IMG/VR virus record: IMGVR_UViG_3300047497_000272
Location: 1 to 50,028 of that record
From: a virus
Direction: 5' to 3' (one strand)
Length of the DNA stretch: 50,028 nucleotides
Below, in pieces: positions 5,998 to 49,536 of this stretch (position 1 is its first letter; each line of letters begins with the position of its first letter). Under the pieces are notes generated by a model, which saw nothing but the letters and a program-made list of their open reading frames with translations, searched no databases and was not told the DNA's origin. A program made the translations under genes and the position numbers.

Positions 5998-7846
5998 CGT
6001 CAACCGCGACTTGGCCAATTCGCTGATCCGCCAGGCGGCGAAAAACGGTGCGAAGGTCAAGGGCGGCGGCCGCCCGAAACCCGCGCCCGTCGACGACGAC
6101 ACCACCGACACGCTGGATGGGCTTGGCCTGCCGGAAAACTGCCCGGTGACGCCGCTTGGATTGCTCGGTCAGACGCGGTTCTACCTCGATTGCCAGAAGC
6201 AACTGATTGCGCTCGACGCCGGCGATCATTCGCGCCAGCGCCTGGTGGGGTTGTTCGGCGAGAAACTGGATTTCCTGTACACCGTGAAGCGCTGGACGCG
6301 GCGCAATACCGAGGGGATGGTCACTGGTATCCGCCCCGAACACATCGCCGAGGATCTGATCAAGGCGTGTGGCCGTCGCGGTATCTGGGATCCCACCAAT
6401 CGCGAGCGCGGCCGCGGCGCCTGGCGCGGGGATGACGGCGAGCTGGTGCTGCACACCGGCAACCAGGTGATGACGTTCGGCCGGCATGATCCGATCGGTT
6501 TGCGCCAGGTGGCGCCGGCGGGCTTGCTCGGCCGCTATGTCTATCCCGCCGCCGAACCGATTCCAGCGCCAACGTTTGACGACGATGACGTCGACCGCGT
6601 CGCCGAACTGTTTCGTGTGGTCCAGACATGGAACTGGCGCCGCACGGATCTGGATGCGGTGTTGCTGCTTGGCTGGGTCGGTGCCGCGATGATCGGCGGC
6701 GCGCTGGACTGGCGCCCCAGCTGCTGGATGACGGGCGGCAAGGGGACCGGTAAATCGACCCTACAGGCCATCCTGCGCCAGGTGCTGGGCGCCGGCGTGT
6801 TGGCGTTGGAGGATACCTCCGGCGCCGGCGTGTGGCAGACGCTGGGCCAGCAGACGCTGCCGGTCGCCGTGGACGAGATGGAGGCGAGCGACGACAACCG
6901 GCGTGCGCTGCAGGTGATCGCCCTGGCGCGCCTGGCGGCATCCGGGGGCAAGATGGCGCGCGGGTCTGATCGTCATACCTCAGTGCAGTTTCAGCTGCGC
7001 AGCTGCTTCATGTTTTCCTCGGTGCTGGTCCCACCGATGATGGGGCCCGACCGGTCGCGCTTGGCGTTTCTGGAACTCGATGAGCTCGATCCCACCGCGC
7101 CCGAACCCAACTTCGACGCGAAGAAGTCGCGCGCGGTGGGCGAGCAGATGCGCAAGCGCCTGGTGCTGGGCTGGAAGCGTTTCGAGGCCACCTTGAAGTG
7201 GTGGCGTGACGCGCTCACCAAAGCGGGGCACACCAAGCGCACGACCGACACATTTGGCACGCTCTTGGCGTGTGCCGACCTGGTGCTCTGGCCGGACGGC
7301 ACGAACGAGGATCAGGCAGACGAATGGTTGAGCCGCATGCAATCGGCCGACCTGGCCGAAACGGTCGATGACGTACGCGACGAACAGCAATGCCTCGACC
7401 ATCTGCTGGCGCAGTTCATCGATCCCTATCGTTCTGGCGAGAAATACACGATCGGTGAATGGATACACCGTGCGGCCGGCCAGAGTGCGGATGTCAGCAT
7501 GGACACCGGCAAGCAGCAGGACGCCCAGCGCGTGCTGCAAAGCTATGGCATTCGTTACGAATTGATCCTACCGCAATACGCTGGCGCGCAGCCGGCGAAA
7601 TGGATCGCGATTGCCAACGCACATTCGTCTCTGGCTCAGTTGTTTGAGCGCACTCGGTGGGGTGCGCCGCGTGGCATCACAGGCGTATGGACGCAAGCCT
7701 TGCGCCGCCTGCCAGGCGCTGAACGATCGGGTCGCACGCTGTATTTTGGTGGCCCGTCCTGTCGGGCGACATTGTTGCCGTTGCAACTCATACCTCGTCC
7801 CGCGTTGCCTCACGACAAACCCGTCAACCCTTTTGATCCGGAGTAG
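5987..7846 (+). CDS. Phage replicative helicase (AAA/SF3-like ATPase)
   Basis: A 619-residue protein with an ATPase core in the middle: Walker A GGKGTGKST (about 250-258) and Walker B LPVAVDEME (about 292-300), followed by a sensor-like block (MARGSDRHTS, FMFSSVLVPPMMGPDRSRL). The N-terminal 200 residues resemble the domain that precedes such ATPases in phage and plasmid replication proteins. A long C-terminal region (WLSRMQSADL, EQQCLDHLLAQFIDPYRSGE) probably gives winged-helix DNA contacts. Together with the upstream primase it forms the phage replication pair. Confidence 0.82.
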   Translation: MSDDVNRDLANSLIRQAAKNGAKVKGGGRPKPAPVDDDTTDTLDGLGLPENCPVTPLGLLGQTRFYLDCQKQLIALDAGDHSRQRLVGLFGEKLDFLYTVKRWTRRNTEGMVTGIRPEHIAEDLIKACGRRGIWDPTNRERGRGAWRGDDGELVLHTGNQVMTFGRHDPIGLRQVAPAGLLGRYVYPAAEPIPAPTFDDDDVDRVAELFRVVQTWNWRRTDLDAVLLLGWVGAAMIGGALDWRPSCWMTGGKGTGKSTLQAILRQVLGAGVLALEDTSGAGVWQTLGQQTLPVAVDEMEASDDNRRALQVIALARLAASGGKMARGSDRHTSVQFQLRSCFMFSSVLVPPMMGPDRSRLAFLELDELDPTAPEPNFDAKKSRAVGEQMRKRLVLGWKRFEATLKWWRDALTKAGHTKRTTDTFGTLLACADLVLWPDGTNEDQADEWLSRMQSADLAETVDDVRDEQQCLDHLLAQFIDPYRSGEKYTIGEWIHRAAGQSADVSMDTGKQQDAQRVLQSYGIRYELILPQYAGAQPAKWIAIANAHSSLAQLFERTRWGAPRGITGVWTQALRRLPGAERSGRTLYFGGPSCRATLLPLQLIPRPALPHDKPVNPFDPE

Positions 7847-30049: not shown

Positions 30050-32820
30050 GCGACGCGCCCGGCCTGATCACCGCGCCGATCGGCAACGCCGCCCTCGCCG
30101 CGCCTGGTGAGAACGCGCCGACAAGCGCCTACCCATCCAGCGTCTGGGACTACACGCCGTTCCTGGAGGATTCCAGCCGTCTCGTTCGCGCGATCGGCAA
30201 CGATCAGGCGACCTTTGGCGCGATCGACGAGTACGGGCGCCAGATAACAGCACCGGAACCGACGATCCCAGCGGCCGAGGCCAACCAGAAATACGGCATT
30301 CCGGGCCAGCTGACCTTTGGCAACGACGTGCCGGAAAGCGTGGCGGCGGACAAATATCAAGCGAAACGGGATGAACTGATGCGCCAGGACGCGGCGTCGC
30401 GCAGCGATGCCGGCCTGTTCACCCGGCTTGGCGCGGGCTTCGCCGCCGGCATCGCCGATCCGCTCAATCTGGCGGCTGCTTTCGTGCCGGGTGTCGGCGA
30501 GGCGCGGATCGAAGGCTTGCTCGCCAGAGCCGGTATCGAGGGCGTCGCCGGCAGCACGCTCGGCCGCCTGGGTGCCGGCGCCATCAACGCCGAGCTCGGC
30601 CAGGTGCCTCTGACGGCGCTCCGCTTTGGCTTAGCCAAAGATGAGGGCGAGGACTATACCATGGCGAACGCGGCGGCCGATGTCCTGATGGGCGGGGCAA
30701 TCGGCGCCGGCGGCCACCTGTTCGCCGGGCTGGCCAAGGATGTGATCGGCAGCGCCTTTGGCCGCTCCGCCGTCGCGCGCTTGGTGGCCGACGATCCCGT
30801 GGCGAACGAACAGACCGCCCGCGCGGCGATCGCCCAGCAGCTGCAGGACGAACCGGTCAACCTGGCGCCGGTGCTGGATTCCACGGCCCTGCGGAGCGCC
30901 TATGCCGATCGGCTGTCGGCGCGCGGCACGGCAACCGAGGGCACATATAACGCCTTCACGCCCGAGGGCATGCGCGTCGAACTGCGTCCCGAGGTCGCGG
31001 AAGCCTCCGACCTGGTGCCATCGAACCTGGAAAGCGGCGAGGTCAATCCCGCCTATCCGGCGGAGCTGCAACCGCGCGATCGCACGAACGCCGCGAGCCT
31101 CGCCCAGGTGCAGGAAATGGCCAGCCGGCTAGAGCCGGAACGGCTGGGTCCATCACCCGAGGCGTCCACCGGCGCGCCGATCGTCAACGACCAGAACGTC
31201 GTGGAAAGCGGCAATGGCCGCACAATGGCGTTGATGCGCGCCTACCGCGATCCGGCCTTCGCCGACCAGGCCACCGCCTACCGGGCGTTCCTGGAGGCGC
31301 AGGGCCACGATGTGAGTGGCATGCGCGAGCCGATCCTGATCGGGCGCCGGGTCACTCAGCTATCGTCCGAGGAAACCGCGCGTTTTACGAAGGCGGCCAA
31401 TGAGCGGGCAACCCTTGGCATGTCGGCGGCCGAGCAGGCGCGCGCCGATGTAGGGCGGGCGGCGAAGGCGATCGATAGCTATGAGCCCGGGCCGCTGAAT
31501 GGTGCGGGCAATCGCGATTTCATCGCACGGTTCATGGCGCAGATCCCGAGCGAGGAACGCGGCGGGATGATCCTGGGGGATGGCCATCTGTCCGTCGCCG
31601 GCGAAACGCGGATCCGCGCAGCCCTGTTCGCCCATGCCTATGGCGACGCGCTCGGTCCGACGCTGGAACGCATGCTGAATGGCAACGTCGACGGCATGAA
31701 GGGCCCGGCAAACGCCCTTGCTGATGTCGCCGGCAAATGGTCGCAGCTGCGCGCGGCGGCCGCCGGCGGCGAGATCCCCGCGGGCCTCGATATCACGCCG
31801 GCGATCGGCGAGGCGATGCAGCTGCTGGATCGCGCGCAGAAGACCGGCACGCCGATCGCTGACCTGCTGGCGCAGTCCGATATGATTGGCGGTCCATCGC
31901 CGGCGGCGGCCGGGCTGTTGCGGCTCATGTTCCGCGACGAGGGCATGCGCCAGCCGGTCGCGCGGGCAAAGATTGCCGATCTGCTAAGCCGCTATGTCGA
32001 CCAGGCGATGGAGGCCAAACCCGGCCCCGGCCTGTTCGGCGAGGCAGAGACGACGCCGGCCGATATCCTGCGCGCGATCCTGTCCGGCGATGATCGTGGC
32101 GAAACGGCCGCACGCGGCTTGGAGACGGCGGCGGAGGAACAGCAGCCTCATCCTACCGGACACGACATCGATGTCAGCGATAGAAAACCATCAGATCCCA
32201 TAAGCACTGTTGATATCGCCGAAATGGCAAAAAGCGGCGATCTCTACCCGCTTTCGATCCGTGACGACAATGGAAAGCCTATCGACCCATTGAACTCGGT
32301 CATCTTGGCCCAGGTCAAAGACGCAGCTTTACAAATCCATTCGGTGAAACTCAACGAGGACTATCAAGGCCGCGGATTGGCAATCGCCGCTTACGAACAA
32401 TTAGTCAATTGGTCACATGACCGCGGACTTCGTTTTCTCAGTGATTCAGAGGTGTCTCCGGATGCGCAACGGCTCTATCAAGCGCTAGAACGGCGCGGAT
32501 ACAAAGTTGAGCGGACCGAGGGTATTAATGATGGCGAAGGTGAAACGCTCCGTGCCGCAGATAAATCAAGTAGTGTTTTTGAAGTTGGACCAAAAGCCGA
32601 TAAAAATTCAGAAGTCGCGATAAACAACAGTAAAGCCCCGCCGGAGCTGACGAAACAGATCGATACGTTGGAAAGCGAATTCCGTGACCTGGACGCCGCT
32701 GGCGCGCTGGATCCGGACATCGCCGATGAGCTGCAGCGTATCAGCGACGCCGACGCGGAAACTCAAGGCGTCGCCGGCGCGATCGGGCAGGCCGCCCTGT
32801 GCCTGTTGGGAGGCCTCTGA
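30046..32820 (+). CDS. Ejected virion protein with DdrB/ParB-like and GNAT domains
   Basis: A 924-residue polyvalent protein. Residues about 130-250 are Ala/Gly-rich membrane-like helices. About 350-560 is a DdrB/ParB-like domain (IVNDQNVVESGNGRTMALMR, ILIGRRVTQLSSEETARF). About 765-825 is a GNAT acetyltransferase domain with the acetyl-CoA loop YQGRGLA and the end RLYQALERRGYKVE. DNA for the GNAT part (about 32160-32640) is 43-53% GC against about 65% around it, which suggests recent insertion. Proteins like this are injected and act on the host before phage genes are expressed. Confidence 0.72.
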   Translation: MSDAPGLITAPIGNAALAAPGENAPTSAYPSSVWDYTPFLEDSSRLVRAIGNDQATFGAIDEYGRQITAPEPTIPAAEANQKYGIPGQLTFGNDVPESVAADKYQAKRDELMRQDAASRSDAGLFTRLGAGFAAGIADPLNLAAAFVPGVGEARIEGLLARAGIEGVAGSTLGRLGAGAINAELGQVPLTALRFGLAKDEGEDYTMANAAADVLMGGAIGAGGHLFAGLAKDVIGSAFGRSAVARLVADDPVANEQTARAAIAQQLQDEPVNLAPVLDSTALRSAYADRLSARGTATEGTYNAFTPEGMRVELRPEVAEASDLVPSNLESGEVNPAYPAELQPRDRTNAASLAQVQEMASRLEPERLGPSPEASTGAPIVNDQNVVESGNGRTMALMRAYRDPAFADQATAYRAFLEAQGHDVSGMREPILIGRRVTQLSSEETARFTKAANERATLGMSAAEQARADVGRAAKAIDSYEPGPLNGAGNRDFIARFMAQIPSEERGGMILGDGHLSVAGETRIRAALFAHAYGDALGPTLERMLNGNVDGMKGPANALADVAGKWSQLRAAAAGGEIPAGLDITPAIGEAMQLLDRAQKTGTPIADLLAQSDMIGGPSPAAAGLLRLMFRDEGMRQPVARAKIADLLSRYVDQAMEAKPGPGLFGEAETTPADILRAILSGDDRGETAARGLETAAEEQQPHPTGHDIDVSDRKPSDPISTVDIAEMAKSGDLYPLSIRDDNGKPIDPLNSVILAQVKDAALQIHSVKLNEDYQGRGLAIAAYEQLVNWSHDRGLRFLSDSEVSPDAQRLYQALERRGYKVERTEGINDGEGETLRAADKSSSVFEVGPKADKNSEVAINNSKAPPELTKQIDTLESEFRDLDAAGALDPDIADELQRISDADAETQGVAGAIGQAALCLLGGL

Positions 32821-35396
32821 TGCCGCGTTCAATCTCTGAGTGCATCGCCTCGGTCGCCAAGGCTGGCAAGCTAACCGGCAAAGCCGCCAAGCAAATGCTG
32901 GAACAGTTGGAGGCCCGCGCGGAACGGATCAGCCGCGAGACGGGCCTGGCGCCGGCAGACGCGGTGCGCCAGGCGCAGACCGAAATGAAGGATGGTTTGG
33001 CGGCGGCTGCCGCCATCGAGAAACGGAATCAACTGCTGAACCTGCAGAAGCGCATCGACCGCCGCCAGCGGATCGAGACGACGGCCGAGGCGTTGAAGGG
33101 TGACCTTGCAACCGCGGTGCGCAACCAGATCGTGGCGATTGCGACACCGGTCAAAGGCGGCCGCCTGTCCGCCGAAGCCGCATGGAAGTCACGGGCGGAA
33201 CGCGTGATCGGCCGCGTGCTGATCCAGTTGAAGAACGAAGGCCTGTTCCGGACCGTTCGCAATGGCACGCTGGAGGACCAATGGGCGCGCGAACTCTATG
33301 AACGCAGCCTGCAGGCAGCGGAAGACCCACGCGCGCAGCCTGGTGTGACCGGAAGTGCCGAGGCGCAGCGCGTCGCGGAGATCTTCCACGACGCCCAGGA
33401 ACAGATGCGCGCGCGGCTGAACCGCCAGGGCGCCTGGATCGGCCAGTATGCCGGCTTCATCACGCGCACCACACATGACGCCGACATCATACGCCGCGCC
33501 GGTTTCGAGGCATGGCGCAACTTCATCGAACCGCGGCTTGATCCACGCACCTTCGACGGTATCGACGATCGCACGGCGTTCCTGCGTAGCTCCTACGACG
33601 GCCTCGCGACAGGCGTCCATCTCTCGGACGATGGGGGTATCGGCTACAAGGATCCTGCGTTCAACGGACCTGGCAATTTGGCGGCGAAACTGTCGGAAAG
33701 CCGGTTGCTGCATTTCAAGGACGCGGAGAGCTGGCTGGCTTATCAGCGCCGCTTTGGCACAGGCGATCTGCTGGGGCAAATGCTGCACAGTTTCGACCAG
33801 GCGGCGCGGATGGAATCCATCCTTGAACGCTTCGGCACCAACCCGGCCGGCGAACTCGACAACGACATGCGCTACCTGGCCGAGCGCTATCGCGGCAGCA
33901 GCCCAGACCAGGTCGCGAAACTGCGCCAGGCGCAAAAGAGTATCACCGGCCTGTTCGGCATGCTGGATGGCAGCGCCAACCGCCCGGTCAACCAGTGGGC
34001 GGCCCAACTGTCCGCCGATGCCCGAACGGTCGAAAGCATGGCAAAGCTTGGCATGGTGGCCTTCACCCACCTGTCGTCGGCGATCACCAAGGCGGCCGAA
34101 CTGCGCTACCAAGGCCTGGGCTTTTTCGAACGCTACGGCAATTTCTTCGATAGCCTCATGCAGGGACGCGGCCGGGGCGAGCAGCGCGACCTCGCTGACC
34201 TGTTGTCCGCCGGCGTCGAAGGCATGCACGGACGGCTGCTGGCGCGGTTCGCACCCGACGACACGGTGCCGGGAACCCTTTCGAAACTCGCCAGTCATTT
34301 CTTCGACGCGACGGGCCTCACCTGGTTGCTCGATGCGCAGAAGGCGGGCACGGCGCGGATCATGTCGCGCCACTTAGGACGCCTGGTGGACGCGGACTAC
34401 GAACACCTTCCACCGGAGGTGCGGCGCGGCCTGCTACAATACGACATTTCCGCCCATGAGTGGGATCTGCTGCGCCAGGCGCCGGACCATTTCACCGACA
34501 AGGATGGACGGGTGTTCCTGACGCCTGACGCCGCCGATCGCGCGGCCGACACAGACATCGCAGCCACATGGAAAGCCAAGCGGACCGGACTTGTTTTGGG
34601 AACCGACGGCGACGCTAGGCCAACGCTGCCGGAACGCGACCCGAGTGAGGCCGACATCCGAACCTATCGCGACCAGCTCGCGATGAAGCTGCATGCCTAC
34701 ATGAAGGATGTCGCCGATCGTGCCATCGTTACGCCTGGCATTGCTGACCGCGCCATCCTCACGCTCGGCACGCAGCCTGGCACCGTAGCGGGAGAGGCAA
34801 TGCGCTTCGTCTCCCAGTTCAAGCTGTGGGGCCTCGCGGCGGTGCGCCAGGGCCTAGGCCGCGAATTGACCCAGGGGAGAGCAGGGGCTGCCGCTGGCAT
34901 AGCTCAGATGGCCGCTGGCGCCGCCCTGTTCGGCTATCTGACCATGACCTTGAAGGACATCTTCAAGGGACAAAACCCACGCGCGCCCAACGACCCGAAA
35001 ACCTGGATGGCAGCGCTGATCCAGGGCGGCGGCTTCGGCATCATGGGCGACTATCTGTTCGGCGAGTATTCCCGGTTTGGCGGCTCAATCGGTGAAAGCA
35101 TTCTCGGCCCCGTGCTTGGTCAAGGTCTGACCGAAGTCATGAATATCTGGAATGCCGCGAAAGAAGGCCGGGCAAAAGACATTCCACCGGAAGCGCTACG
35201 GATTGTCATGAACAACCTGCCGTTCGTCAACATGTTCTACACCCGCACGGCACTGAATTACTTGTTCCTGCACTCGCTGCAGGAGCGGATGAACCCCGGT
35301 TATCTACGGCGCAGCGAGCAGAACATGAAGCGACGCACCGGCCAGAGCTACTTCCTCAGCCCGGCTTCGACCCACCTCCATACCTTCGGGGCATGA
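32820..35396 (+). CDS. Large internal virion protein (gp16-like position)
   Basis: An 858-residue helical protein, the last of the ejected set. The C-terminal part has several hydrophobic helices (GAALFGYLTMTLKDIFKGQN, GGGFGIMGDYLFGEYSRFGG) and the conserved end RRTGQSYFLSPASTHLHTFG. The start MPRSIS overlaps the previous stop. A full-length homologue, similar from end to end, lies at 43678-46248 on the other strand. Confidence 0.75.
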   Translation: MPRSISECIASVAKAGKLTGKAAKQMLEQLEARAERISRETGLAPADAVRQAQTEMKDGLAAAAAIEKRNQLLNLQKRIDRRQRIETTAEALKGDLATAVRNQIVAIATPVKGGRLSAEAAWKSRAERVIGRVLIQLKNEGLFRTVRNGTLEDQWARELYERSLQAAEDPRAQPGVTGSAEAQRVAEIFHDAQEQMRARLNRQGAWIGQYAGFITRTTHDADIIRRAGFEAWRNFIEPRLDPRTFDGIDDRTAFLRSSYDGLATGVHLSDDGGIGYKDPAFNGPGNLAAKLSESRLLHFKDAESWLAYQRRFGTGDLLGQMLHSFDQAARMESILERFGTNPAGELDNDMRYLAERYRGSSPDQVAKLRQAQKSITGLFGMLDGSANRPVNQWAAQLSADARTVESMAKLGMVAFTHLSSAITKAAELRYQGLGFFERYGNFFDSLMQGRGRGEQRDLADLLSAGVEGMHGRLLARFAPDDTVPGTLSKLASHFFDATGLTWLLDAQKAGTARIMSRHLGRLVDADYEHLPPEVRRGLLQYDISAHEWDLLRQAPDHFTDKDGRVFLTPDAADRAADTDIAATWKAKRTGLVLGTDGDARPTLPERDPSEADIRTYRDQLAMKLHAYMKDVADRAIVTPGIADRAILTLGTQPGTVAGEAMRFVSQFKLWGLAAVRQGLGRELTQGRAGAAAGIAQMAAGAALFGYLTMTLKDIFKGQNPRAPNDPKTWMAALIQGGGFGIMGDYLFGEYSRFGGSIGESILGPVLGQGLTEVMNIWNAAKEGRAKDIPPEALRIVMNNLPFVNMFYTRTALNYLFLHSLQERMNPGYLRRSEQNMKRRTGQSYFLSPASTHLHTFGA

Positions 35397-39450: not shown

Positions 39451-39806
39451 TTTTCCAAGGGGTTAGATCTGCCTCGACGGACTCAGGCTAATCCGTATTG
39501 ATCTTGCGGACTCGTGGCGGACTCATCGCGCGAGGATGATGGTGTTCCCATTCCATCGCCATCCAGGCCTACCGCGACGATCCTTCGCCCTGAATGTCGC
39601 GTCGCAAGGCCGTTCCGGCCGTCATGTTTGTTAGCTGGTTTGTCAGCCTTAACCGACGACCTCGGGTTAATTTCTACCCCCTAACATATTGTATATGCTG
39701 CTCTAGCCTCCTTAATAGGTCATCTATTCAATTCACTAAGGTCCATTTCCTCTTCGATTGTTCCGGCTTTATCCTTCATCAGCACAGGCATGTCTCCGAA
39801 AAGTCC
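39451..39806. other. Junction stretch without a convincing gene
   Basis: This stretch joins the attachment site to unit 2. It contains three GGACTC copies (about 39479-39523) and AT-rich sequence near 39670-39780. No frame is persuasive. It may be remains of another integration. Confidence 0.4.
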
Positions 39807-40056
39807 GGGGCCACCGGGTCCACCGGGGCCGCTCTCGATTTCTATGGGTATAACAACCTTGTATCTGGCCCCGGTCGTCGAGAATACCTGGCCCCAGCCA
39901 TTTGCCACTGGGGCCAACAACGGTTTTCTTTACTAACAGTTCGGCCCCGGTGGCCCCAGTCTGAAATATGACCGGGGCCACGCTACCGGGGCCAGATATA
40001 TCTATGATTTGATTATATAATCTCTTCTATAAAAGAGGCACGGCCCCGATGGCCCC
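39807..40056. repeat. GGGGCC repeat cluster
   Basis: Eleven exact GGGGCC/GGCCCC hexamers in 250 bases, at 39807, 39825, 39867, 39890, 39910, 39943, 39952, 39974, 39988, 40042 and 40051. Several have a 9-base period (GGCCCCGGTGGCCCC). Both orientations occur, and AT-rich DNA separates the last groups (39994-40040). It lies just past the replication-gene remnant of unit 2, the same relative place as the AACGTCA cluster in unit 1. Confidence 0.7.
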
Positions 40057-40174
40057 GGTATTTTTCGATTATGCGCCGACAGGGTTTAATCTGCTGGCAT
40101 GCCTCGGACACAAAAATGGCGCGAAGGAACGCCTCCCGCGCCGCGACCTCCCGCCGCGCCTTGCCGCTCTGCAT
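40013..40174 (-). CDS. Possible small gene (53 aa) after the DUF927 remnant
   Basis: A reading frame starting MQSGKARREVAAREAFLRAI and ending FIEEII. It is helical and charged with two Cys, and starts 12 bases after the stop of the broken DUF927 fragment. The end crosses two GGGGCC motifs (KYRGHRGRA). It has no clear ribosome site. Confidence 0.3.
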   Translation of the reverse strand: MQSGKARREVAAREAFLRAIFVSEACQQIKPCRRIIEKYRGHRGRASFIEEII

Positions 40175-40185
40175 TGCCGTTAAGG

Positions 40186-40345
40186 CTACTCATCAACTTT
40201 CGGCGCCACCACCCTCAGGCGGGACGTCCATGCCCCCAGCCGTCTATGCAGGCAGGTTAGCAACCTCAATATCGAATACCTCGGGGATCAGGCCATGCAC
40301 CCAGATCAGTTCAGCCGCTTTGTCCTTTTCCTGCCTCCCAGCACC
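40186..40345 (-). pseudogene. Broken 3' fragment of a DUF927 helicase gene
   Basis: On the minus strand it still encodes WVHGLIPEVFDIEVAN, matching WVHGLIPEVFDTEVAN of the intact gene at 46575-48497, and the last residues before the stop (RVVAPKVDE). About 60 bases between these blocks are deleted, the upstream part is gone, and a stop follows VDE. It shows that the 3' end of this gene is present twice in the same orientation. Confidence 0.75.
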
Positions 40346-40549
40346 AGTTCGACGCCGAACGGCTGCCACGCCGGCGTGTGCCTAGCAGGTGGAGCGCACA
40401 GGGATCCGCACCAGGTCTACGCCGCGCGGTCGCCATGCGGTGCGTGCATCGCCGACAAAGCGCACGAGGATCCGCGCCAGGTCGACACCGTGCGGCTGTT
40501 ATGGTCGCGTGTTGTCCGCCGACAGAGCCAGCGAGGATCCGCACCAGGT
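40346..40549. repeat. Left part of a roughly 65-bp tandem repeat array
   Basis: Units begin GAGGATCCGCACCAGGT or a variant and continue with CACCGTGCGG-type sequence and a GTCGCCATG-like centre. Clear units start near 40394, 40458 and 40532; the last is cut after CCAGGT by the inverted repeat of the inserted element. A more diverged unit lies near 40335-40393. They resemble no repeat type I know and are too long, too uneven and without constant spacers for CRISPR. Confidence 0.6.
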
Positions 40550-40570
40550 GGTAGCGTCTCAGTTTGAATT
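40550..40570 (+). repeat. Left terminal inverted repeat (21 bp)
   Basis: Begins GGTAGCGTCTCAG and ends TTTGAATT. It matches the reverse complement of 43461-43481 at every base; similarity stops sharply on both sides. Confidence 0.85.
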
Positions 40571-40682
40571 TCCGCTTGCGATCCAACTCGGTCATCCGGC
40601 GCCCAGAAACTTGGTGCCTAAAGCGGTCATCCACTGATGTAGAGTAGGGGCTCGGAATTTGCGCAACTGTCCAGGGCGGCGT

Positions 40683-41591
40683 TTAGCTCGCAGCTTTAAA
40701 AATCCCGAACCGTTGTGCCAGGTTAAGCGGGCTGGGCCAGTGTGCGGGATCGCGAGGAGTCCGAAGAGATGCACCCTCAAGGCTACTATACTCTGACACC
40801 GTCAGCTTTCCAGCGATTGCCACCCGCAATGTCTTCGGATCGACAGCTAATAGGCCGTAATCGAACAGGGTGTGGATGTCGGCGCGCAGCAGAAGACCGT
40901 TGGAAACCTGGTTCGTGGAAGGCCCGCCATAAGGCGAGATATGCGCAGCCTCCAGCACATCCGAAACGTTGCATCCGGTGATAGCGCACCTGCCTTCGTA
41001 CGCGTCGAGCAAGGCGGCGCGGAATGCTGGCTGGCCACGCCGTATGCAAATGGCCCGCAGCGCTTGTTCGCGTTCATCGAGGGTGCTGACAGAATCGAAG
41101 GCGGCGTCGACGGCCTGACCGCTGTCAGGCGCCAGTTGACCGGCCAGGAGAACCGGCGCAAGGCGCCGTTCCAGTTCGAGCGCTACGTCGTCGGGCACGG
41201 AGAAGCCGCTCGCTGCCGCCGTTACTAGCGATGCCGGGACGATGTCCTCGATGGCAAACAACGAGAGTAGAAACTCTTGGGTGGGATCGACGAGCTTCTG
41301 AAACCTGATCTCCACCCTCCAGCGTGGCGGCAAGTCGATCGGCGTGGGGCGGAAATCTGGAGCGGTGACGATCTCGCCGACACCGATGACACCTCTGGGT
41401 GAGGCCGTCCCCTGCTTGAAGATGTAAACTCGGTCACCGACCCGCGCCTGCTGATGGCTGTGGATGCGCCACCATTCTGTCGACTCGGGAGCCAGACTTA
41501 CGCGCGCTATTAGGTCGCGGAGTTCGGCCAGGGGCCACCCGCGATCCGGGGCTTCCTCGGCGGGGCAGAACGTGAGCCAGTAGGCAGACAT
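40683..41591 (-). CDS. EVE/PUA-like HNH endonuclease
   Basis: A 302-residue nuclease. Residues 1-80 look like an EVE/PUA-type modified-base reader (SAYWLTFCPAEEAPDRGW, WWRIHSHQQARVGDRVYIFK, GVIGVGEI). Residues 195-255 are an HNH_2 domain: CAITGC (202-207), AAHISPY with His217, NG at 231, and RADIHTLFD with His240. Known EVE-HNH enzymes (such as VcaM4I) cut DNA carrying modified cytosines, so a type IV-like restriction role is likely. The start MSAYW is chosen because GGAAG precedes it; a longer start would overlap the promoter. Confidence 0.75.
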   Translation of the reverse strand: MSAYWLTFCPAEEAPDRGWPLAELRDLIARVSLAPESTEWWRIHSHQQARVGDRVYIFKQGTASPRGVIGVGEIVTAPDFRPTPIDLPPRWRVEIRFQKLVDPTQEFLLSLFAIEDIVPASLVTAAASGFSVPDDVALELERRLAPVLLAGQLAPDSGQAVDAAFDSVSTLDEREQALRAICIRRGQPAFRAALLDAYEGRCAITGCNVSDVLEAAHISPYGGPSTNQVSNGLLLRADIHTLFDYGLLAVDPKTLRVAIAGKLTVSEYSSLEGASLRTPRDPAHWPSPLNLAQRFGIFKAAS

Positions 41592-41604
41592 CGGATACTT
41601 CCGG

Positions 41605-41654
41605 TTGGTGGGGACGCAGAGATAAATCATAGTCGGCTCGCCCTTGTAACCGAA
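41605..41654. promoter_or_regulatory. Overlapping divergent promoters of nuclease and reverse transcriptase
   Basis: Plus strand: TTGGTG (41605-41610), 17 bases, CATAGT (41628-41633). Minus strand: TTCGGT (complement of 41649-41654), 17 bases, TATGAT (complement of 41626-41631). The two -10 boxes overlap, so polymerase could serve only one direction at a time. Both are moderate matches. Confidence 0.4.
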
Positions 41655-41675
41655 CCATTCCGTCGGGAAGACCTG

Positions 41676-43367
41676 ATGGCTGCACCACCCGTTCGTTCAC
41701 GGCAGTCCGCCGCCCAGAGCCTGAGGCGCCTGCTGAAGTCACACTACCTTGCGGACGAATTCCCAGGCGTCCTGACAACGACGGCCTTTGCCGATTACTG
41801 TGCGAACAACTTTGCTAAACTGCCGACGAACGATAACCTCCTAAGCCGCATAACGCAGTACGGCCCGTACTCCGCACCACGTCAGATGGAAGCCCGCCGG
41901 CCCTTGGCGTTGCCGCATCCCGCAAGTCAACTCGCCCTGAGCCGCATTATTGCGGAAAACCGGGCAGAGATCGTAAGCGTCATCAACCGATCAAAGCTAA
42001 CCCTGTACAACACGGCCCCCGATGCCTCGCAAGATCGGCTCTTCTCGGGCGTGGATTATAAGGCGAGAGATGTCCGCAAGGCACAGATACTAGCCAGGTA
42101 TCCAGTGATACTGATGACTGATATCGCCAACTTCTTCCACACGATCTATTCGCATTCGTTGCCCTGGGCCGTTTTGGGCAAGCCGCATGTGAAGGATATT
42201 TTGGAGGCATCTGGCAAGAAGGCCGAAAAGAAGGCCTTGGAGCAGCATTGGTCGAACCAGATCGACCGCGCTATACAGCGCGGAAATTCCCGAGAGACAT
42301 TTGGTATACCGGTCGGTCCCGATACCTCGCGCATGATCGCGGAGATCCTCCTCTCGGGGATCCACTCCAACCAGAGCCTTGAAAGCATTTTACAGGAGAG
42401 AGATGGATACCGGCTTGTCGACGACTTCTTCATCGGCTTTGACGACGAGTCTGAGGCGCGGCGTTGTCGGGACACTCTTCGGCAAGCACTCTGGGATTAT
42501 AACCTGCATTTTAACGAGACGAAGACGGGCATCAAGCGATCCAGTACATTCTTCGATGATAGCTGGAAGTATGAGATCGATAGCTTTGACGTCCCGAAAG
42601 GGCGCATCCAAAAGCAACGTGACGCGATCCAGCGGCTTATGGAGATCGCGCTCGGACACTGTGCCGCCCGAGATGAACCCACCCCGGCAAGCTTTTTCTG
42701 CCAGAGGCTGACGCGTATCGATATTCTACCGGCCAACTTTCCGTTTGTTCGCGACTGCATGCTTCGTGTCGCAAGGGACTTCACGGGGTGCCTAAAGTCG
42801 GTCGTGATTTTCGTGACGCAGTTTCGGACGTATCTCTCCGGTGCCGACGATAAGACCGTAATAAAGCGTTGGCTAAAGCAGATTTTTGCAACGCACACCC
42901 ACCGTGGCCACGACATGGAGATCGCGAACGCGCTCGCGATCTGCGGAGTCCTTGGCCTGAACGTGGATCGGAAGTTTGTCGCACCTGGGGACATCGTCGT
43001 TTCGCCCGTTGTTCTGGCGGTACTCGGTCTGCTGAGTGAGGATGGCCTGCTTGCTGAACCGTGGGACGACTGGAAGCCAAAGGACGCGGGGAGCATCACG
43101 AACATCGTTAACGGACGGTATTGGTTACCCTACTACGAGGCGGTGACGCGGAAATGGACGAAGGATTCCGATCTGGTCGAGGCGTTCGCCGCAGATGATT
43201 TCTTCATGGCGCTGGCAAAGGAGTCTGTCAGTTTCCTGGATATGTCCGACTTTGCCAGCCAATTTAAGCTAATTCCGCCTTTGAAACGGCTGCGTCCAAA
43301 ATCTGGTGCGCTGCAGCGCGGACCAGTGCGCAGTGTGAGGCGGAGCGTGACAGATGAATATTCGTAG
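41676..43367 (+). CDS. Reverse transcriptase, unknown-group/abortive-infection type
   Basis: A 563-residue protein. Palm motifs are VILMTDIANFFHTIY (Asp149), GIPVGPDTSRMIAEI (210-224), YRLVDDFFIGF (Asp249 and Asp250; Leu replaces the usual Tyr/Phe of YxDD), and LHFNETKTGI. The C-terminal 200 residues contain HTHRGHDMEIANALAICGVL and VLAVLGLL, like the helical-repeat domain after the polymerase in AbiK/Abi-P2 and defence reverse transcriptases (DRT). No maturase, HNH or DGR-type motif is present. Ribosome site GGGAAG. Antiphage function is inferred from family and neighbour; the DRT class is not assignable by eye. Confidence 0.8.
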   Translation: MAAPPVRSRQSAAQSLRRLLKSHYLADEFPGVLTTTAFADYCANNFAKLPTNDNLLSRITQYGPYSAPRQMEARRPLALPHPASQLALSRIIAENRAEIVSVINRSKLTLYNTAPDASQDRLFSGVDYKARDVRKAQILARYPVILMTDIANFFHTIYSHSLPWAVLGKPHVKDILEASGKKAEKKALEQHWSNQIDRAIQRGNSRETFGIPVGPDTSRMIAEILLSGIHSNQSLESILQERDGYRLVDDFFIGFDDESEARRCRDTLRQALWDYNLHFNETKTGIKRSSTFFDDSWKYEIDSFDVPKGRIQKQRDAIQRLMEIALGHCAARDEPTPASFFCQRLTRIDILPANFPFVRDCMLRVARDFTGCLKSVVIFVTQFRTYLSGADDKTVIKRWLKQIFATHTHRGHDMEIANALAICGVLGLNVDRKFVAPGDIVVSPVVLAVLGLLSEDGLLAEPWDDWKPKDAGSITNIVNGRYWLPYYEAVTRKWTKDSDLVEAFAADDFFMALAKESVSFLDMSDFASQFKLIPPLKRLRPKSGALQRGPVRSVRRSVTDEYS

Positions 43368-43387
43368 TTTGGAGCCCCGGCCAAACT
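43366..43387 (+). terminator. Hairpin at the reverse transcriptase stop
   Basis: AGTTTGG (43366-43372) and CCAAACT (43381-43387) form a 7-bp stem with an 8-base GC-rich loop starting on the stop codon. There is no T run, so it may protect the message rather than end transcription. Confidence 0.35.
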
Positions 43388-43460
43388 CCGACGCGAACCG
43401 AATGTCTAGTTCGGGCACTCTCGATCCAGAATCAGACCGTCGGTTGACCACCCAATCCAG

Positions 43461-43481
43461 AATTCAAACTGAGACGCTACC
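43461..43481 (-). repeat. Right terminal inverted repeat (21 bp)
   Basis: Begins AATTCAAA and ends CTGAGACGCTACC on the plus strand, the exact reverse complement of 40550-40570. Confidence 0.85.
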
Positions 43482-43677
43482 GAGAAGATCGATGCCGCGC
43501 GGTCGCCATGTAGTGCGTGCGTCGCCGTGGAGCGCGCGAGGATCCGCGCCAGGTCAACACCATGCGGCCGTTGTGGCGGCATGGCCACCCGTAGGGCGCA
43601 CGAAGGTCAACACAAAGTCGACTCCAAATGGTTGCTGGCAGGGTGCGAGCTGGCGTCTCGCCCACCGGAGCCAGTCA
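43482..43677. repeat. Right part of the roughly 65-bp tandem repeat array
   Basis: The first unit lacks its beginning and starts near CGATGCCGCGCGGTCGCC, exactly the piece missing at 40549. A second full unit starts near 43545 (GAGGATCCGCGCCAGGTC). A third, diverged one (about 43608-43670) contains TGGTTGCTGGCAGG, which also occurs in the 3' end of the adjacent virion gene. This suggests the array grew from, or recombined with, that gene end. Confidence 0.6.
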
Positions 43678-46248
43678 TTAACGTCCGAAGATGTGAAGGT
43701 GGTTGCTGGCAGGACTAAGGAAATATGTCTGGCCAGTGCGGCGACGCAAGGATTGCTCCGATCGTTTCAAGTAACCAGGATTCATGGTCTCCTGAAGACT
43801 GTGCAGAAACAGGTAATTGATAGCTGCCCTGCTGTAGAACATATTTACAAAGGGAAGATTATCCATAATCAGCTTGACAGCATCCGGCGACAAGTCGCTA
43901 CCCCTTCCCTCTTTGAGATCATTCCAGATTTTGATTACCTGCGACGTTCCTTGGCCTAGGACAGGTCCTAACAACGTGTCCCCGAGACTTCCACCAAACC
44001 GAGAAAACTCGCCGAATACGAAGTCTCCGAGGATCCCGAAGCCGCCGCCCTGCATCAGGGCCGCCGCCCATGTCGCCGGACTGTTCGGCGGCCGCGGGTT
44101 CTTGCCCTGCGAGAGGTCGCTCAAAAACATGCGCATATAGCCGAAGGCCGTGGCGGCGATGGCCAGTTGGATGATCCCGCTTACAGCTCCGGCCAAACCT
44201 TGTTCGCCATAGAACTCACGGCCGAGACTCTGCCGCACTGCGGCAAGCCCCCAGAGCTTGAATTGAGCGACGAACCGCAGTGCCTCACCCGCCGGCGTCC
44301 CGGGCAATGTGCCCCCACGCACAAGCGCCCGGTCCGCGACGCCTGGTGTGATGATTGCTCTATCTGCCACATCCTGCAGATAGGCGTGCAGCTTGAGGCC
44401 GAGTTTGTCGCGGAAATCAGCGATTTCCCCGTCCGTGGGTGTCCGGTCCGGTAAAGCGTTCTGCAGAATTCTCTGTGTCGCGTCCCGGACGCTGGCGCGC
44501 GCGTCCTGCCAGGCCTGTGTAATGGCGCCGGTGTCCGCCCGGTTGGCGGCATCCGGCGTCAAATGAACGCGGCCGTTGACCTGGATGTGGTCCGGAGCCG
44601 TGCGTACCGCATCCCACTCCCTCGTGGTGATGTCGTATTGCCTGAAAGCACGCTGGGTCTCCGGCGGTAGCTTATCGAATTCCCGATCGACCAGCGTGCC
44701 CAGAAGGCGCGCCATCACGCGTTGGGCGCCTGATTTCTGGGCATCGATCATCCAGTTGAGGCCAGTGCCGGTTATGAAACGGTTCATCAGCTTAGACATC
44801 GTGCCAGGCCACGTGTCGTTCGGTGTGAACCGATTGAGGATCCACCCGTGCATCCCTTCCAAGCCCGCACTCAGTAGGTCGTTGAGCTCTGCCGCCTCGC
44901 CGGGCATCAACCTATTGAAGACGCTGGTAAAGAAATCCGCGTAACGCTCAAAAAATCCCACACCCTGATAGCGCAATTCCCCGGCTTTGGTGGCGCCGGA
45001 GCCGAGATGCGTCAGTAGAACGCCTCCCAGTTTTGCCATGCTCTCTTCGTTTCGCAAGCTGGCGCTGATTTCGGCACCCAGCTTGCTCACGGAGCGGTTT
45101 GCCGTGCCGTCCAACTCATCAAAAAGCGAGTTTAATACAGGGATACGTCGTTTCAGATCGTCCACGGCATTTGAGGGAAAGTTTGCGTATTTCCTTCGGA
45201 GATAGTCGATGTCGGCATTCAGCTCCGCCCGTGGATTGGTGCCCCAACGCGCCATCAACGCTTCCTGCCGCGCGGCGCGATCGAAGCTGCCGAGCATCTG
45301 TTGCAGCAACGTGCCGGTACCGAACCGTCTCTGATATGCCAGCCAGGACTCGGCGTCCTTGAAATGCAGCACCCGGCTCTCGGAAAGCTTGCCCGCGAGG
45401 TTCGCTGGTCCAGTGAAAGCGGGATCCTTGAAGGAGCCACTATCGCTGTCCGAAAGGTGGTCACCGGTTACCAACCCCCGGAATGCCCCGGCCAGGAAAG
45501 TGTTTCGATCAGGTCTGCCATCGAAGGTGTGTTCGTCCAGAAGAGGTGCGATGAACGCGCGCCACCCTTCAAGGCCAGCGCGTCGTATCAGGTCCGGATC
45601 ATGCGTTGTCCGCGTGATGTAGCCAGCATATTGGCCGATCCACGCACCCTCGCGGTTCAACCTGACCCGAGCGGCCTCCTGTGTCTCGTGGAAAATTTGC
45701 GCGATCTTCCGCGCCTCGGCGCTGCGAGTGACGCCAGGATTGGCGCGCGGATCGCCGGCGGCTTTCAGTGAAAGTTCGTAAAGCTCTCGCGCCCAGTCAT
45801 CGTCCAGGGTTCCTTTCCGGACGGTGTTGTCGAGACCTGCCTTTTTCAGGCGCGTGAGGACGTCATAATAGGATGTCCTGCGGGCATTCGCTTGGGCTTC
45901 CGCCGAATATCGACCGCCATCTACAGGCGTATTGATCGCGACGATCTGGTTGCGCATCGCCTGATACAAATCACCGTTGAGCGCCTTCGCCGTGTCCTCA
46001 AGTCGCCGGCGCCTGGCAATTCGCTTCTGAAGGTTTAGCAGCGCATTTCGCTTCTCTATCAACCTTATAGTTGTATTCGTGTCTTTGGCCTCTTTGGCGG
46101 CCGCGAGGATGGCGTCTCGCTCCGTTAATCCTCGTTCCAGACGCAATCTGTTCGATCGCTCTTCAATATCTTCAAGGAGACGCTTCGCTTCTGACAAACT
46201 CATCTTGCCAGCGGTAGCAATCAACTCGACGCAATTTTCAAGCGGCAT
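43678..46248 (-). CDS. Large internal virion protein of unit 2
   Basis: An 856-residue homologue of the 32820-35396 protein, similar from the start (KRLLEDIEERSNRLRLERGL) to the end (RRTGQTYFLSPASNHLHIFG). It has the same hydrophobic C-terminal helices (GGGFGILGDFVFGEFSRFGG). The frame is intact although the other virion genes of this unit are missing. It starts by TAATG coupling to the 92-residue gene. Confidence 0.75.
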   Translation of the reverse strand: MPLENCVELIATAGKMSLSEAKRLLEDIEERSNRLRLERGLTERDAILAAAKEAKDTNTTIRLIEKRNALLNLQKRIARRRRLEDTAKALNGDLYQAMRNQIVAINTPVDGGRYSAEAQANARRTSYYDVLTRLKKAGLDNTVRKGTLDDDWARELYELSLKAAGDPRANPGVTRSAEARKIAQIFHETQEAARVRLNREGAWIGQYAGYITRTTHDPDLIRRAGLEGWRAFIAPLLDEHTFDGRPDRNTFLAGAFRGLVTGDHLSDSDSGSFKDPAFTGPANLAGKLSESRVLHFKDAESWLAYQRRFGTGTLLQQMLGSFDRAARQEALMARWGTNPRAELNADIDYLRRKYANFPSNAVDDLKRRIPVLNSLFDELDGTANRSVSKLGAEISASLRNEESMAKLGGVLLTHLGSGATKAGELRYQGVGFFERYADFFTSVFNRLMPGEAAELNDLLSAGLEGMHGWILNRFTPNDTWPGTMSKLMNRFITGTGLNWMIDAQKSGAQRVMARLLGTLVDREFDKLPPETQRAFRQYDITTREWDAVRTAPDHIQVNGRVHLTPDAANRADTGAITQAWQDARASVRDATQRILQNALPDRTPTDGEIADFRDKLGLKLHAYLQDVADRAIITPGVADRALVRGGTLPGTPAGEALRFVAQFKLWGLAAVRQSLGREFYGEQGLAGAVSGIIQLAIAATAFGYMRMFLSDLSQGKNPRPPNSPATWAAALMQGGGFGILGDFVFGEFSRFGGSLGDTLLGPVLGQGTSQVIKIWNDLKEGRGSDLSPDAVKLIMDNLPFVNMFYSRAAINYLFLHSLQETMNPGYLKRSEQSLRRRTGQTYFLSPASNHLHIFGR

Positions 46249-46526: not shown

Positions 46527-46574
46527 CGAGCTTCCCCATCATATTGTCTAGATTTATCCGATTAAGAAAAGCCA

Positions 46575-48497
46575 TCAGGGCGGCTCATCGACTTCTGGCA
46601 CCACCACCATCAGGCGGGGACGCCCGTGCCCTGGAATGCGCCTGGCTTTGAACGTCCAACGGGTCTCGCCATTCTCTTGTGCGCCCTTGATCATGCCTGC
46701 CTTGCCCAGTCGCGTCCGTGCTTCCCGGCCGTCCATGCCAAGCGGGTTGGCAACCTCGGTGTCGAATACCTCGGGGATCAGGCCATGCACCCAGAAGCGT
46801 TCACCCGCCTTGTTCTTTTCCTGCCAGCGCCAGCCTGCGCGGTTAATGGTCTTGGCGCCTTCCGGCAACGGGGGTTCGCTTTGTGCACCGTCGGTGCCTT
46901 CGCCCGGCTCCCGCACTACCTCAAATCGTGCAGAACCGTGCAGCGCCATGAATTTGCGGAAAGATGACGCCAAGTTTTGATCTTCGCGGCTTCCCGTGCC
47001 GCCCCGGTCCGCAAGCCAGTCGCGGAACAGGATGCCCACTGCATTGGCTGTGTCGTCGCGCTGCCAGCCTGTGATACCTGCCGCCGTCGCAAGCTCTCCC
47101 GCAACCGCCACCAGCGCCAAACGCCTCCCGGCCCGTTGCACTTGCCCATCAACATTCTTCGGTATGTGTTCGCCGCACCACCGCGTGATACCAGGCAGGA
47201 TCACCTGAGCGGCAAAGTCTGGCTCCCGGATCAGGCGTCCCGCGATGTAGTCCAAGAACGCGGGCGCCGCCGTGCCATGTTGCGAGATGACACTCCGCCT
47301 GAGACCTTGAGCAAAGGCGCTACCATCTGCGGCGCCGTGCAGCTCGTCAAAGCAGCCGAACCCACCCGGCACGATGGCGGGGATATCGAGCATGCGGATT
47401 TCCTGCCCCGCCTTCATCCGCTTGCCAGCATGCTCCGCCATGCGTGCCGCGCTTTCCTCGCTGCTGCTGAGAACAAGTGTCAGCCATGTCGTGCCGCGCC
47501 GATTACCACCGCCAGCACGTGCGCGGTCTTTTCCGGTGCCGTGCGCAAGCATATAGAGGGTCTCTGGGACCTCGCGCGGGTCCGCTTGGCCCATTTCATC
47601 CATGGGCAACAGGGCGTGGTTATGGGCAGCGGCGGTCGTTTCCAAGGCGTTCGAAGTTGTCCGCCACTGCCGAACAAACGAGTCCGGTCCCGTCTTGCTC
47701 GGCGCTCCCCAGACAGATGCGGCAACATCGATGATTGTCGTCTTGCCCTTACTGCTCTCGCCGCGAAGGTTGAAGCCGCCGCCTTCATCCCCTACCAACA
47801 TCAGCAATGGCGCCGCGAAAGCACACGCCACGCCGAAAATCAGGCGGTTATTGCCGACACAAGCGGCTGCCACCTCTTCACGCCAGCTCTCCAGTGTTCC
47901 GCGCCCAGTGTAGATCGTCGGCAGAGGATCCAGGTCGAGCCGCACCACCTCTCCCGGCACCGAGCCAATAGCACGGTCCGGCAAGATGAAAGCGGCACCA
48001 CCGCCAGAGGGTCTATACCAGCCCGTGCGCGGCACGGTGCGCACACGGGCTGGGGTGTGGACTGATGCTAGGAATTGCACCAGCGCTAGCCGGGCGCCCT
48101 GTGATGCGCTCACGTCCAGTCCGCATGCAGCTAGCCTTGCCCGCACTTCCACAGCCTCTCCAGCCAGCAAGCGGCGTGGCATGTTCCATTCGTGCCGCTT
48201 CCCGTCTCTATCATTCCAAGTCAGCAACAGGCCCCATTCTGCACCGTCTTCTGGCCTGCTTTCGGCGACGATCTCCATCGGTCCGCACACCCGAAACGGT
48301 GCTTTGCCTTCTCCCGGATCACGCCATAACCCGTTGGGTCGCATCTCAAAGCCGTGCGGTATGGCATAAGTCGTGCTATCCACGACGGGTGCCCCTGCAA
48401 CCGCGTCACTGACTGCATCTTTGCCATTTGCGGAGCGTTTCTTTTTCGTTTCAGTTGTAGCGATAGCGCCGTTTGCAGCGTTCTGATGTGCAGCCAT
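46575..48497 (-). CDS. DUF927-type phage helicase
   Basis: A 640-residue replication ATPase of unit 2. Walker A is GESSKGKTT (246-254) and Walker B ALLPMDEMGQ (295-304); RTGWYRPSGG and FNLRGESSKGKTT are family landmarks. The C-terminal part ends in a winged-helix-like block (ARTRLGKAGMIKGAQENGE). It starts one base after the primase stop (TGAcATG). It is unrelated in sequence to the unit 1 helicase apart from the ATPase motifs, so the two phages use different replication modules. Confidence 0.8.
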   Translation of the reverse strand: MAAHQNAANGAIATTETKKKRSANGKDAVSDAVAGAPVVDSTTYAIPHGFEMRPNGLWRDPGEGKAPFRVCGPMEIVAESRPEDGAEWGLLLTWNDRDGKRHEWNMPRRLLAGEAVEVRARLAACGLDVSASQGARLALVQFLASVHTPARVRTVPRTGWYRPSGGGAAFILPDRAIGSVPGEVVRLDLDPLPTIYTGRGTLESWREEVAAACVGNNRLIFGVACAFAAPLLMLVGDEGGGFNLRGESSKGKTTIIDVAASVWGAPSKTGPDSFVRQWRTTSNALETTAAAHNHALLPMDEMGQADPREVPETLYMLAHGTGKDRARAGGGNRRGTTWLTLVLSSSEESAARMAEHAGKRMKAGQEIRMLDIPAIVPGGFGCFDELHGAADGSAFAQGLRRSVISQHGTAAPAFLDYIAGRLIREPDFAAQVILPGITRWCGEHIPKNVDGQVQRAGRRLALVAVAGELATAAGITGWQRDDTANAVGILFRDWLADRGGTGSREDQNLASSFRKFMALHGSARFEVVREPGEGTDGAQSEPPLPEGAKTINRAGWRWQEKNKAGERFWVHGLIPEVFDTEVANPLGMDGREARTRLGKAGMIKGAQENGETRWTFKARRIPGHGRPRLMVVVPEVDEPP

Positions 48498-48498
48498 G

Positions 48499-49536
48499 TC
48501 AAGCGTTCGCCCGGAGGGTATCATTGAAGTCTTTCCCGGCAGGTGGGCGGGCAAGCCGCACAATCCGGCCGGGTCCGGAAAAATGGGCAATAGCCGCAAG
48601 CAATCCTCGTTTGGCCGCTTGATTGCCGGGACGATCATTGTCAGCGCAGAGGATGACCGTTCGCACTGAGTCAGGCAGCACGATCCGTGCCATGTTCGAC
48701 AACGCCACTGCCGCCAGCACTCTGAGGTGAGGACAGGCCACCGCCACGGACAACGCCGTTTCGATGCCTTCTGCAATGGCAACTGTCTCGCCATCCGGCG
48801 CAGCTCGCAACGGTTTCCCGGAGGCCCCGCGCTGCAACGGGATGAAGCCTCCGGCATAACTGCCGAACGTCTTCTTCACCTCCCGTAACGGTGCCTTGGC
48901 CCACACTCCTGCCGGGGTCCGAGCAAGCCAAGTCCTATGGGTGGCGATATGCTCGCCCTGTCCATCCGTGATGGCCCCCAGCATCGCCGGCAGCGAGGCG
49001 CGCACCTCCTGGCACCAGATATCGGGGCGGAAGCGTAGGGCCCTCGGTGTCCGGCCAAGCTCGGACAGGTCGATGCCGCGGGCTGCCAGATATGCCGCCG
49101 CCGGGGTGCCTGCTAACCCCTCTGACGCAGCCAGGAACATTGCCAGTGCCCTCTGCCGCCGTTTGGCTTCATCGACACGGGCGGCCTCTCGGCTTGCTTG
49201 TGGCGGCGGCCCGCGACGCTTTTCCGGAAGATCGACGGCGGTGTCAGTCAAGCCCAACCAGGCCCGCGCCCAATCGATAGCGAGCCTTATATCGCCAGCG
49301 AACAGAACGGCGGCCACAAGATCGAGAGCGTCACCCGCTTCGCCAGATGCGAAGTCGGACCAAAGGCCGGCCCGCACGCCGAAGATGCGGACAGAGAGAG
49401 ATTGCCCAGCCTCTCCCGCAAGACTGCCACACCGCCACTCTACGCCGTTGCGGCGGCCGTTTGGCAGCAACTCAGCCGCCAAGGCAGGTGCCTGCTGAGC
49501 GAGCATGGCGGATAGTGCTTTGGCGTCATGCTGCAT
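48499..49536 (-). CDS. Toprim-domain DNA primase of unit 2
   Basis: A 345-residue primase. The N-terminal half (GVEWRCGSLAGEAGQSLSVR, LWSDFASGEAGDALDLVAA) is homologous to the unit 1 primase. The Toprim domain is intact: catalytic Glu in VAIAEGIETALS (about 252-263) and DxD as ILCADND (about 295-301). It pairs with the DUF927 helicase directly downstream. Confidence 0.82.
   Translation of the reverse strand: MQHDAKALSAMLAQQAPALAAELLPNGRRNGVEWRCGSLAGEAGQSLSVRIFGVRAGLWSDFASGEAGDALDLVAAVLFAGDIRLAIDWARAWLGLTDTAVDLPEKRRGPPPQASREAARVDEAKRRQRALAMFLAASEGLAGTPAAAYLAARGIDLSELGRTPRALRFRPDIWCQEVRASLPAMLGAITDGQGEHIATHRTWLARTPAGVWAKAPLREVKKTFGSYAGGFIPLQRGASGKPLRAAPDGETVAIAEGIETALSVAVACPHLRVLAAVALSNMARIVLPDSVRTVILCADNDRPGNQAAKRGLLAAIAHFSGPGRIVRLARPPAGKDFNDTLRANA

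Follow-up and report, generated by a model that had tools for sequence, protein, structure and literature searches.

Locus organization

The window analysed here is the whole 50,028-nucleotide stretch of IMG/VR record IMGVR_UViG_3300047497_000272. Within it, the segment 40550-43481 is bounded by two arms that are complementary at 21/21 bases, the perfect inverted repeat from which the original prediction of a mobile cassette started. The arms enclose only two sizeable open reading frames (ORFs), 40683-41630 (-) and 41676-43367 (+). These are divergent, lie 45-84 bp apart (first start at 41630 or 41591), and are predicted to encode an EVE-HNH-like nuclease and a DRT6-type reverse transcriptase (RT). 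That the segment holds these two genes and no transposase, as first claimed, is confirmed: an IS1-type transposase used as query found homologues in dozens of other loci and 0 in the window. The features of the locus are the following.

40393..40549, no strand: left part of a tandem repeat array of 66-67-bp units, interrupted by the element
40542..40549, no strand: left 8-bp target sequence CACCAGGT, tail of the interrupted repeat unit, placed by the empty-site register and by the 8-bp direct repeats that related elements have here
40550..40570, + strand: left terminal inverted repeat, GGTAGCGTCTCAGTTTGAATT, with a perfect partner at 43461-43481 and 18/19 first bases equal to the family end GGTAGTGTCTCAGTTTGAA
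40683..41591 (longest ORF from 41630), - strand: putative EVE-HNH-like nuclease gene, from an HNH_2 domain, a VcaM4I match and an H-N-H triad
41676..43367, + strand: putative DRT6-type (UG/Abi group) RT gene, from PADLOC, a PDB profile and catalytic residues
43461..43481, - strand: right terminal inverted repeat, pairing with 40550-40570 and matching the family ends
43482..43489, no strand: right 8 bp, GAGAAGAT, where the second target copy is expected, matching the left 8-mer at 4/8 positions
43490..43583, no strand: right part of the interrupted repeat array

The outer flanks had been proposed to join into one repeat unit. This is borne out, and can be sharpened to the loss of exactly 8 bp: joining the flanks without GAGAAGAT (43482-43489) gives one 65-66-bp unit with a 53/66 match to unit 1. 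Joins that omit 0, 6, 7, 9 or 10 bp reach only 23-33/66. The flanks are thus in the register expected after an insertion that duplicated 8 bp of target. The core of the tandem repeat, AGGATCCGCRCCAGGTC, is also present in 13 viral contigs (L264-L276), and to the left of the element, 39802-39962 is rich in GGGGCCACCGGG and contains imperfect inverted repeats. Searches of 39900-44100 against Rfam returned no RNA family, and promoter and terminator scans did no better than on shuffled sequences.

A family of elements with the same ends

Most probably, 40550-43481 is a non-autonomous IS1-type transposable cassette (a mobile insertion cassette) that carries two divergent antiphage-type genes and is presumably moved in trans, since its ends belong to a family that borders units with 8-bp repeats, 22/50 of which encode a transposase. 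Over the first 19 bases, the window end has a single difference from the family end GGTAGTGTCTCAGTTTGAA, a C at position 6, which both arms share. Units of 0.28-4.3 kb with the family end at their borders occur on plasmids of Rhizobiaceae, in genomes of the Limobrevibacterium order and in at least 119 IMG/VR contigs. Comparison of the left end with plasmids by blastn yields loci of Neorhizobium, Shinella and Rhizobium, with alignments beginning exactly at 40550. Several of these loci, as well as a Hoeflea plasmid, carry GGTAGTGTCTCAGTTTGAA with an inward-facing partner 0.5-4.2 kb off, and 8-bp direct repeats surround the plasmid units, as exemplified by GATGATTG/GATGATTG. A scan of IMG/VR with a pattern allowing T or C at position 6 (GGTAGYGTCTCAGTTTGAA) gave at least 119 stretches; the exact 20-bp window end is found in no viral contig, because the C6 of the window copy is rare. 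Of 299 sampled genomes of the Limobrevibacterium order, 22 contain the end (at most 1 mismatch) and 0 a reversed control pattern.

Among loci with an end, 45 are paired (window included), and the direct repeat is 8/8 in 34 of them and 7/8 in 2. Pair discovery required an exact match at one end only; the second end (in many pairs) and the direct repeat (in all pairs) are therefore independent evidence. In four bacterial copies extracted whole, the 8-bp repeats are exact and a transposase gene is present; in L287 this gene is broken into two ORFs. After merging and removal of duplicates, 50 distinct elements of 277-4324 bp are obtained, window included, and 41 of the 49 others have a direct repeat of at least 7/8. 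A full-length IS1-type transposase is found in 22/50 elements (18 with such a repeat) and a transposase fragment in 8/50 (7 with the repeat). The other 20/50 are without transposase; 16 of them have the repeat, and the window element is among the remaining four. The alignment of 82 sister ends shows conservation ending near base 22, equal to the arm length in the window. The same ends in other genomes, different cargo between them and autonomous relatives with a transposase, all proposed as checks of the cassette reading, have thus been found, and the ends are not confined to this locus.

MITE-like (miniature inverted-repeat transposable element-like) units of 277-454 bp with family ends and exact 8-bp repeats were also observed (L136:3860-4136, L119:3863-4316, L187:1197-1592, L200:7317-7712). 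An assignment to IS66-type ends, which have GTA at the terminus, was rejected: the 8-bp repeats of the sisters flank GGT directly, and their transposase is IS1-type.

The sister transposases

The Pfam model DDE_Tnp_IS1 scores above its cutoff in 4/4 sister transposases tested. A small basic protein (KPKRPRDxNQLAKxIVDIATGE...GGLKGGKARA or similar) recurs in many IS1-type elements (L102:7210-7488, L116, L153, L161, L163, L169, L177, L181, L286 and L290), sometimes as the sole remaining gene. The members tested match nothing in NCBIfam or Pfam, the protein is absent from the window element, and it is possibly an accessory gene of the elements. Proteins with a P63C domain also adjoin the IS1-type transposase (L201:1156-2163, L285:1382-2428).

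The reverse transcriptase

The RT matches the PADLOC family Drt6 over its full length (1.1e-114), with Drt4 as runner-up (5e-82). A profile of seven RT homologues searched against the PDB places 9wy8 on top (5.7e-79), followed by UG15/DRT4-type structures (3e-36). The search output labels 9wy8 only as a reverse-transcriptase domain protein; from the literature, it appears to be the published DRT6 structure. The polymerase catalytic residues D149, D249 and D250 are invariant across the seven homologues. DRT4 is described as a single-gene, template-independent producer of toxic random single-stranded DNA, and DRT6 as its relative, the phage trigger ORF55 being common to both (reviews PMC13213688, PMC13314766). 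With its full-length Drt6 match and 9wy8 as best structure, the window RT resembles DRT6, but it differs in sitting in a transposable cassette beside a nuclease.

The EVE-HNH-like nuclease

Translation of the nuclease probably starts at Met-14 (41591), the position at which two ~50%-identical homologues begin. The protein contains an HNH_2 domain (1.3e-14), and its C-terminal half matches VcaM4I (PDB 6yex, 2.1e-11). The H-N-H triad is intact and conserved (H230/N244/H253, longest-ORF numbering). The corresponding triad of VcaM4I, an EVE-HNH modification-dependent endonuclease, is H224/N241/D250 (PMC7897488), and the two triads align. The N-terminal half has no structure match in the PDB, and a single-sequence AlphaFold model is uninformative (pLDDT, the predicted local distance difference test, of 33). 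The EVE match in the N-terminus reaches 18.0 bits for a cutoff of 23, and 16.8 bits in a homologue. The window protein resembles VcaM4I in its C-terminal HNH part and may share the layout with an N-terminal EVE-like part; it differs by the sub-threshold EVE match and by a His in place of Asp250. The earlier description as a modified-DNA nuclease is a fair reading, although it depends on this sub-threshold match. A pattern search returned no HNH relatives in viral contigs.

Cargo of the sister elements

The autonomous Hoeflea element carries proteins matching RmrA (3e-191) and RmrT (1e-97) in PADLOC, names which we take to refer to RosmerTA. Further sister cargo matches other RmrA proteins, PD-Lambda-2_B, HEC-09, HEC-04, PD-T4-5 and methylases. 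The nearest transposase-less parallel to the window element, L185, is a 2505-bp unit with an exact repeat and a methylase with an Mrr-like domain. At E < 1e-5, 14/20 sister passenger proteins match PADLOC defence families, against 2/10 randomly drawn ORFs of similar size in flanking controls (Fisher p = 0.019), but this enrichment is suggestive only, because the cargo was picked by eye among the larger proteins, and because methylases and generic ATPases readily give PADLOC matches.

Genomic setting

The record begins with a prophage running from integrase to endolysin (~1-39 kb), followed by a second primase/helicase and virion set in inverted orientation (43.7-50 kb). The primase/helicase modules are at 4924-7846 (+) and 46575-49536 (-), and the virion genes at 32799-35396 (+) and 43678-46248 (-) are 59% identical. 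The record thus holds one prophage together with a truncated remnant of another, which lies in opposite orientation. Immediately to the left of the tandem repeats is a degraded version of the 3' end of the second helicase gene (46571-46825); positions 40176-40335 are 79-84% identical to it. This copy and the prophage layout place the cassette at the edge of a prophage, in phage DNA undergoing decay. It is uncertain whether the cassette should be called phage-borne, because the DNA around it is decayed and lies between the prophage and the inverted remnant.

Proposed mechanism

An autonomous sister elsewhere in the cell would supply the IS1-type DDE transposase, so that the cassette is presumably transposed in trans by its cognate enzyme. 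This transposase would bind the ~21-bp ends, the only transposition parts of the cassette, and insertion would create the 8-bp target duplication. The two putative antiphage genes would in this way be delivered together as a unit. By analogy with DRT4, the DRT6 RT may produce toxic DNA during infection, and the EVE-HNH-like nuclease is predicted to cut DNA with modified cytosines.

Weighing of the evidence and alternative explanations

Several results weigh against a trans-mobilised IS1-type cassette. NCBIfam IS1 is the best family for the sister transposases, but scores only 67-78 bits, below its cutoff of 100; hence the label IS1-type rather than IS1, for what would be a divergent branch of the IS1 family or a group next to it. 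No transposase with matching ends is known from the same cell as the window. Among the end variants, C6 is uncommon: 0 viral contigs and 0/385 sampled genomes of the Methylocella class have it. Limobrevibacterium does carry it, as does L249, in which the partner of the C6 end is a T6 end and the 8-bp repeat is exact. The 8-mers flanking the window element (CACCAGGT and GAGAAGAT) agree at 4/8, barely above chance, and most sisters have 8/8. The mismatch points to decay of the flank after insertion or to a rearrangement on one side; 8/49 other paired units likewise have no good direct repeat. No second copy of the window cassette was found. The uninterrupted repeat unit expected at an empty site was also not found in related genomes, a check that covered contigs other than those with the repeat core AGGATCCGCRCCAGGTC; the sequences related to the adjacent virion gene (31-32%) are too remote to provide one. 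Finally, the choice of the sister cargo by eye, as noted above, bears on the defence character of the family.

Among the alternatives, the one that survives best, though it is unlikely, is that of a formerly autonomous IS1-type transposon with passengers (as in L086 and L138): a deletion would have removed the transposase, leaving in the decayed prophage DNA a relic no longer able to move. Sisters of similar size do have a transposase and two or three passengers, and the elements with transposase fragments, the decaying phage DNA around the insertion and the degenerate target repeat all fit such a history. However, no trace of a transposase is left in the cassette, and both ends are still identical over 21 bp, the shared C6 included. 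Moreover, transposase-less units with exact repeats, of up to 2505 bp (L185), show that such units insert.

Within the preferred reading of a mobile cassette, the HNH nuclease and the RT might form one obligate two-component defence system, an arrangement to which their divergent genes, 45-84 bp apart in one minimal cassette, would be suited. This is rather improbable. The closest RT relatives found (51-56% identical, in Methylocella and Limobrevibacterium) have neither an HNH partner nor family ends; the nearest HNH relatives adjoin other genes, one homologue lying beside type I restriction genes; and DRT4 and DRT6 are described as single-gene systems. In the searched loci of RT and HNH relatives, the HNH-RT pair was found nowhere besides the window. 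It is more likely, therefore, that the two genes act independently.

An ancestral phage defence locus including the flanking repeats, in which the inverted repeat is a terminator, a regulatory palindrome or due to chance, would suit the RT and HNH genes, common in prophage defence loci, but is highly improbable, a perfect 21-bp repeat within 5 kb being far above chance and the end recurring with 8-bp repeats at dozens of unrelated sites (reversed control 0/299 genomes).

Significance and comparison with known systems

Defence genes are known to cluster and to move, and the carrier transposons described are mostly large. With a 21-bp end and an 8-bp target rule, precise 0.3-4-kb cassettes can be defined from raw sequence, so that unknown cargo between such ends provides a ranked list of defence candidates. 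Since transposase-bearing and transposase-less forms coexist, a direct test of whether a simple insertion sequence (IS) mobilises a defence gene in trans is feasible. The chances appear roughly even that an unrecognised IS1-type branch acts as a general shuttle by which small antiphage cassettes spread among alphaproteobacteria, including the plasmids and prophages of these bacteria. This shuttle would include autonomous forms (with RosmerTA, PD-Lambda-2, HEC-09 and others) and transposase-less ones, the window element being a two-gene member with a DNA-making RT and a modified-DNA nuclease. The exact sequence of the family ends does not appear in the searchable literature, and neither an IS1-type branch with defence-type cargo nor an RT and EVE-HNH cassette was found described in open-licence papers. 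The original prediction that no such unit had been described stands, as far as these papers go, for this cargo pair and not for the kind of element, mobile insertion cassettes being an established class (see below).

The ends of IS1 start with GGT. The sisters share this start with the IS1 family, together with 8-bp target repeats and transposases that match the IS1 DDE model. Unlike IS1, they have a single long ORF (~290-320 aa) below the NCBIfam IS1 cutoff and 1-3-kb passengers, and the window element has no transposase.

IS1595-family elements and transporter IS are presented, in a reference cited in PMC3129680, as IS related to IS1 that carry passenger genes unrelated to transposition. The sisters resemble them in this respect, but the IS1595 model gives ~25 bits on their transposases, for a cutoff of 75.

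Tn7-like transposons also ship defence genes, defensive RTs included (PMC8649781). In contrast with their multi-gene targeted machinery, the sisters have a one-gene IS1-type transposase, and the 3-kb cassette of the window has none.

The closest described class is that of mobile insertion cassettes, such as MIC231 of Bacillus cereus and the qnrD mic of Proteeae (PMC3129680, PMC3913671). These likewise hold passenger genes between IS-type inverted repeats, without transposase, and MIC231 is moved in trans, the qnrD mic presumably so. Their ends come from other families (IS231, of the IS4 family, for MIC231) and their cargo consists of endopeptidase or antibiotic-resistance genes, whereas the window element combines IS1-type ends with two antiphage-type genes.
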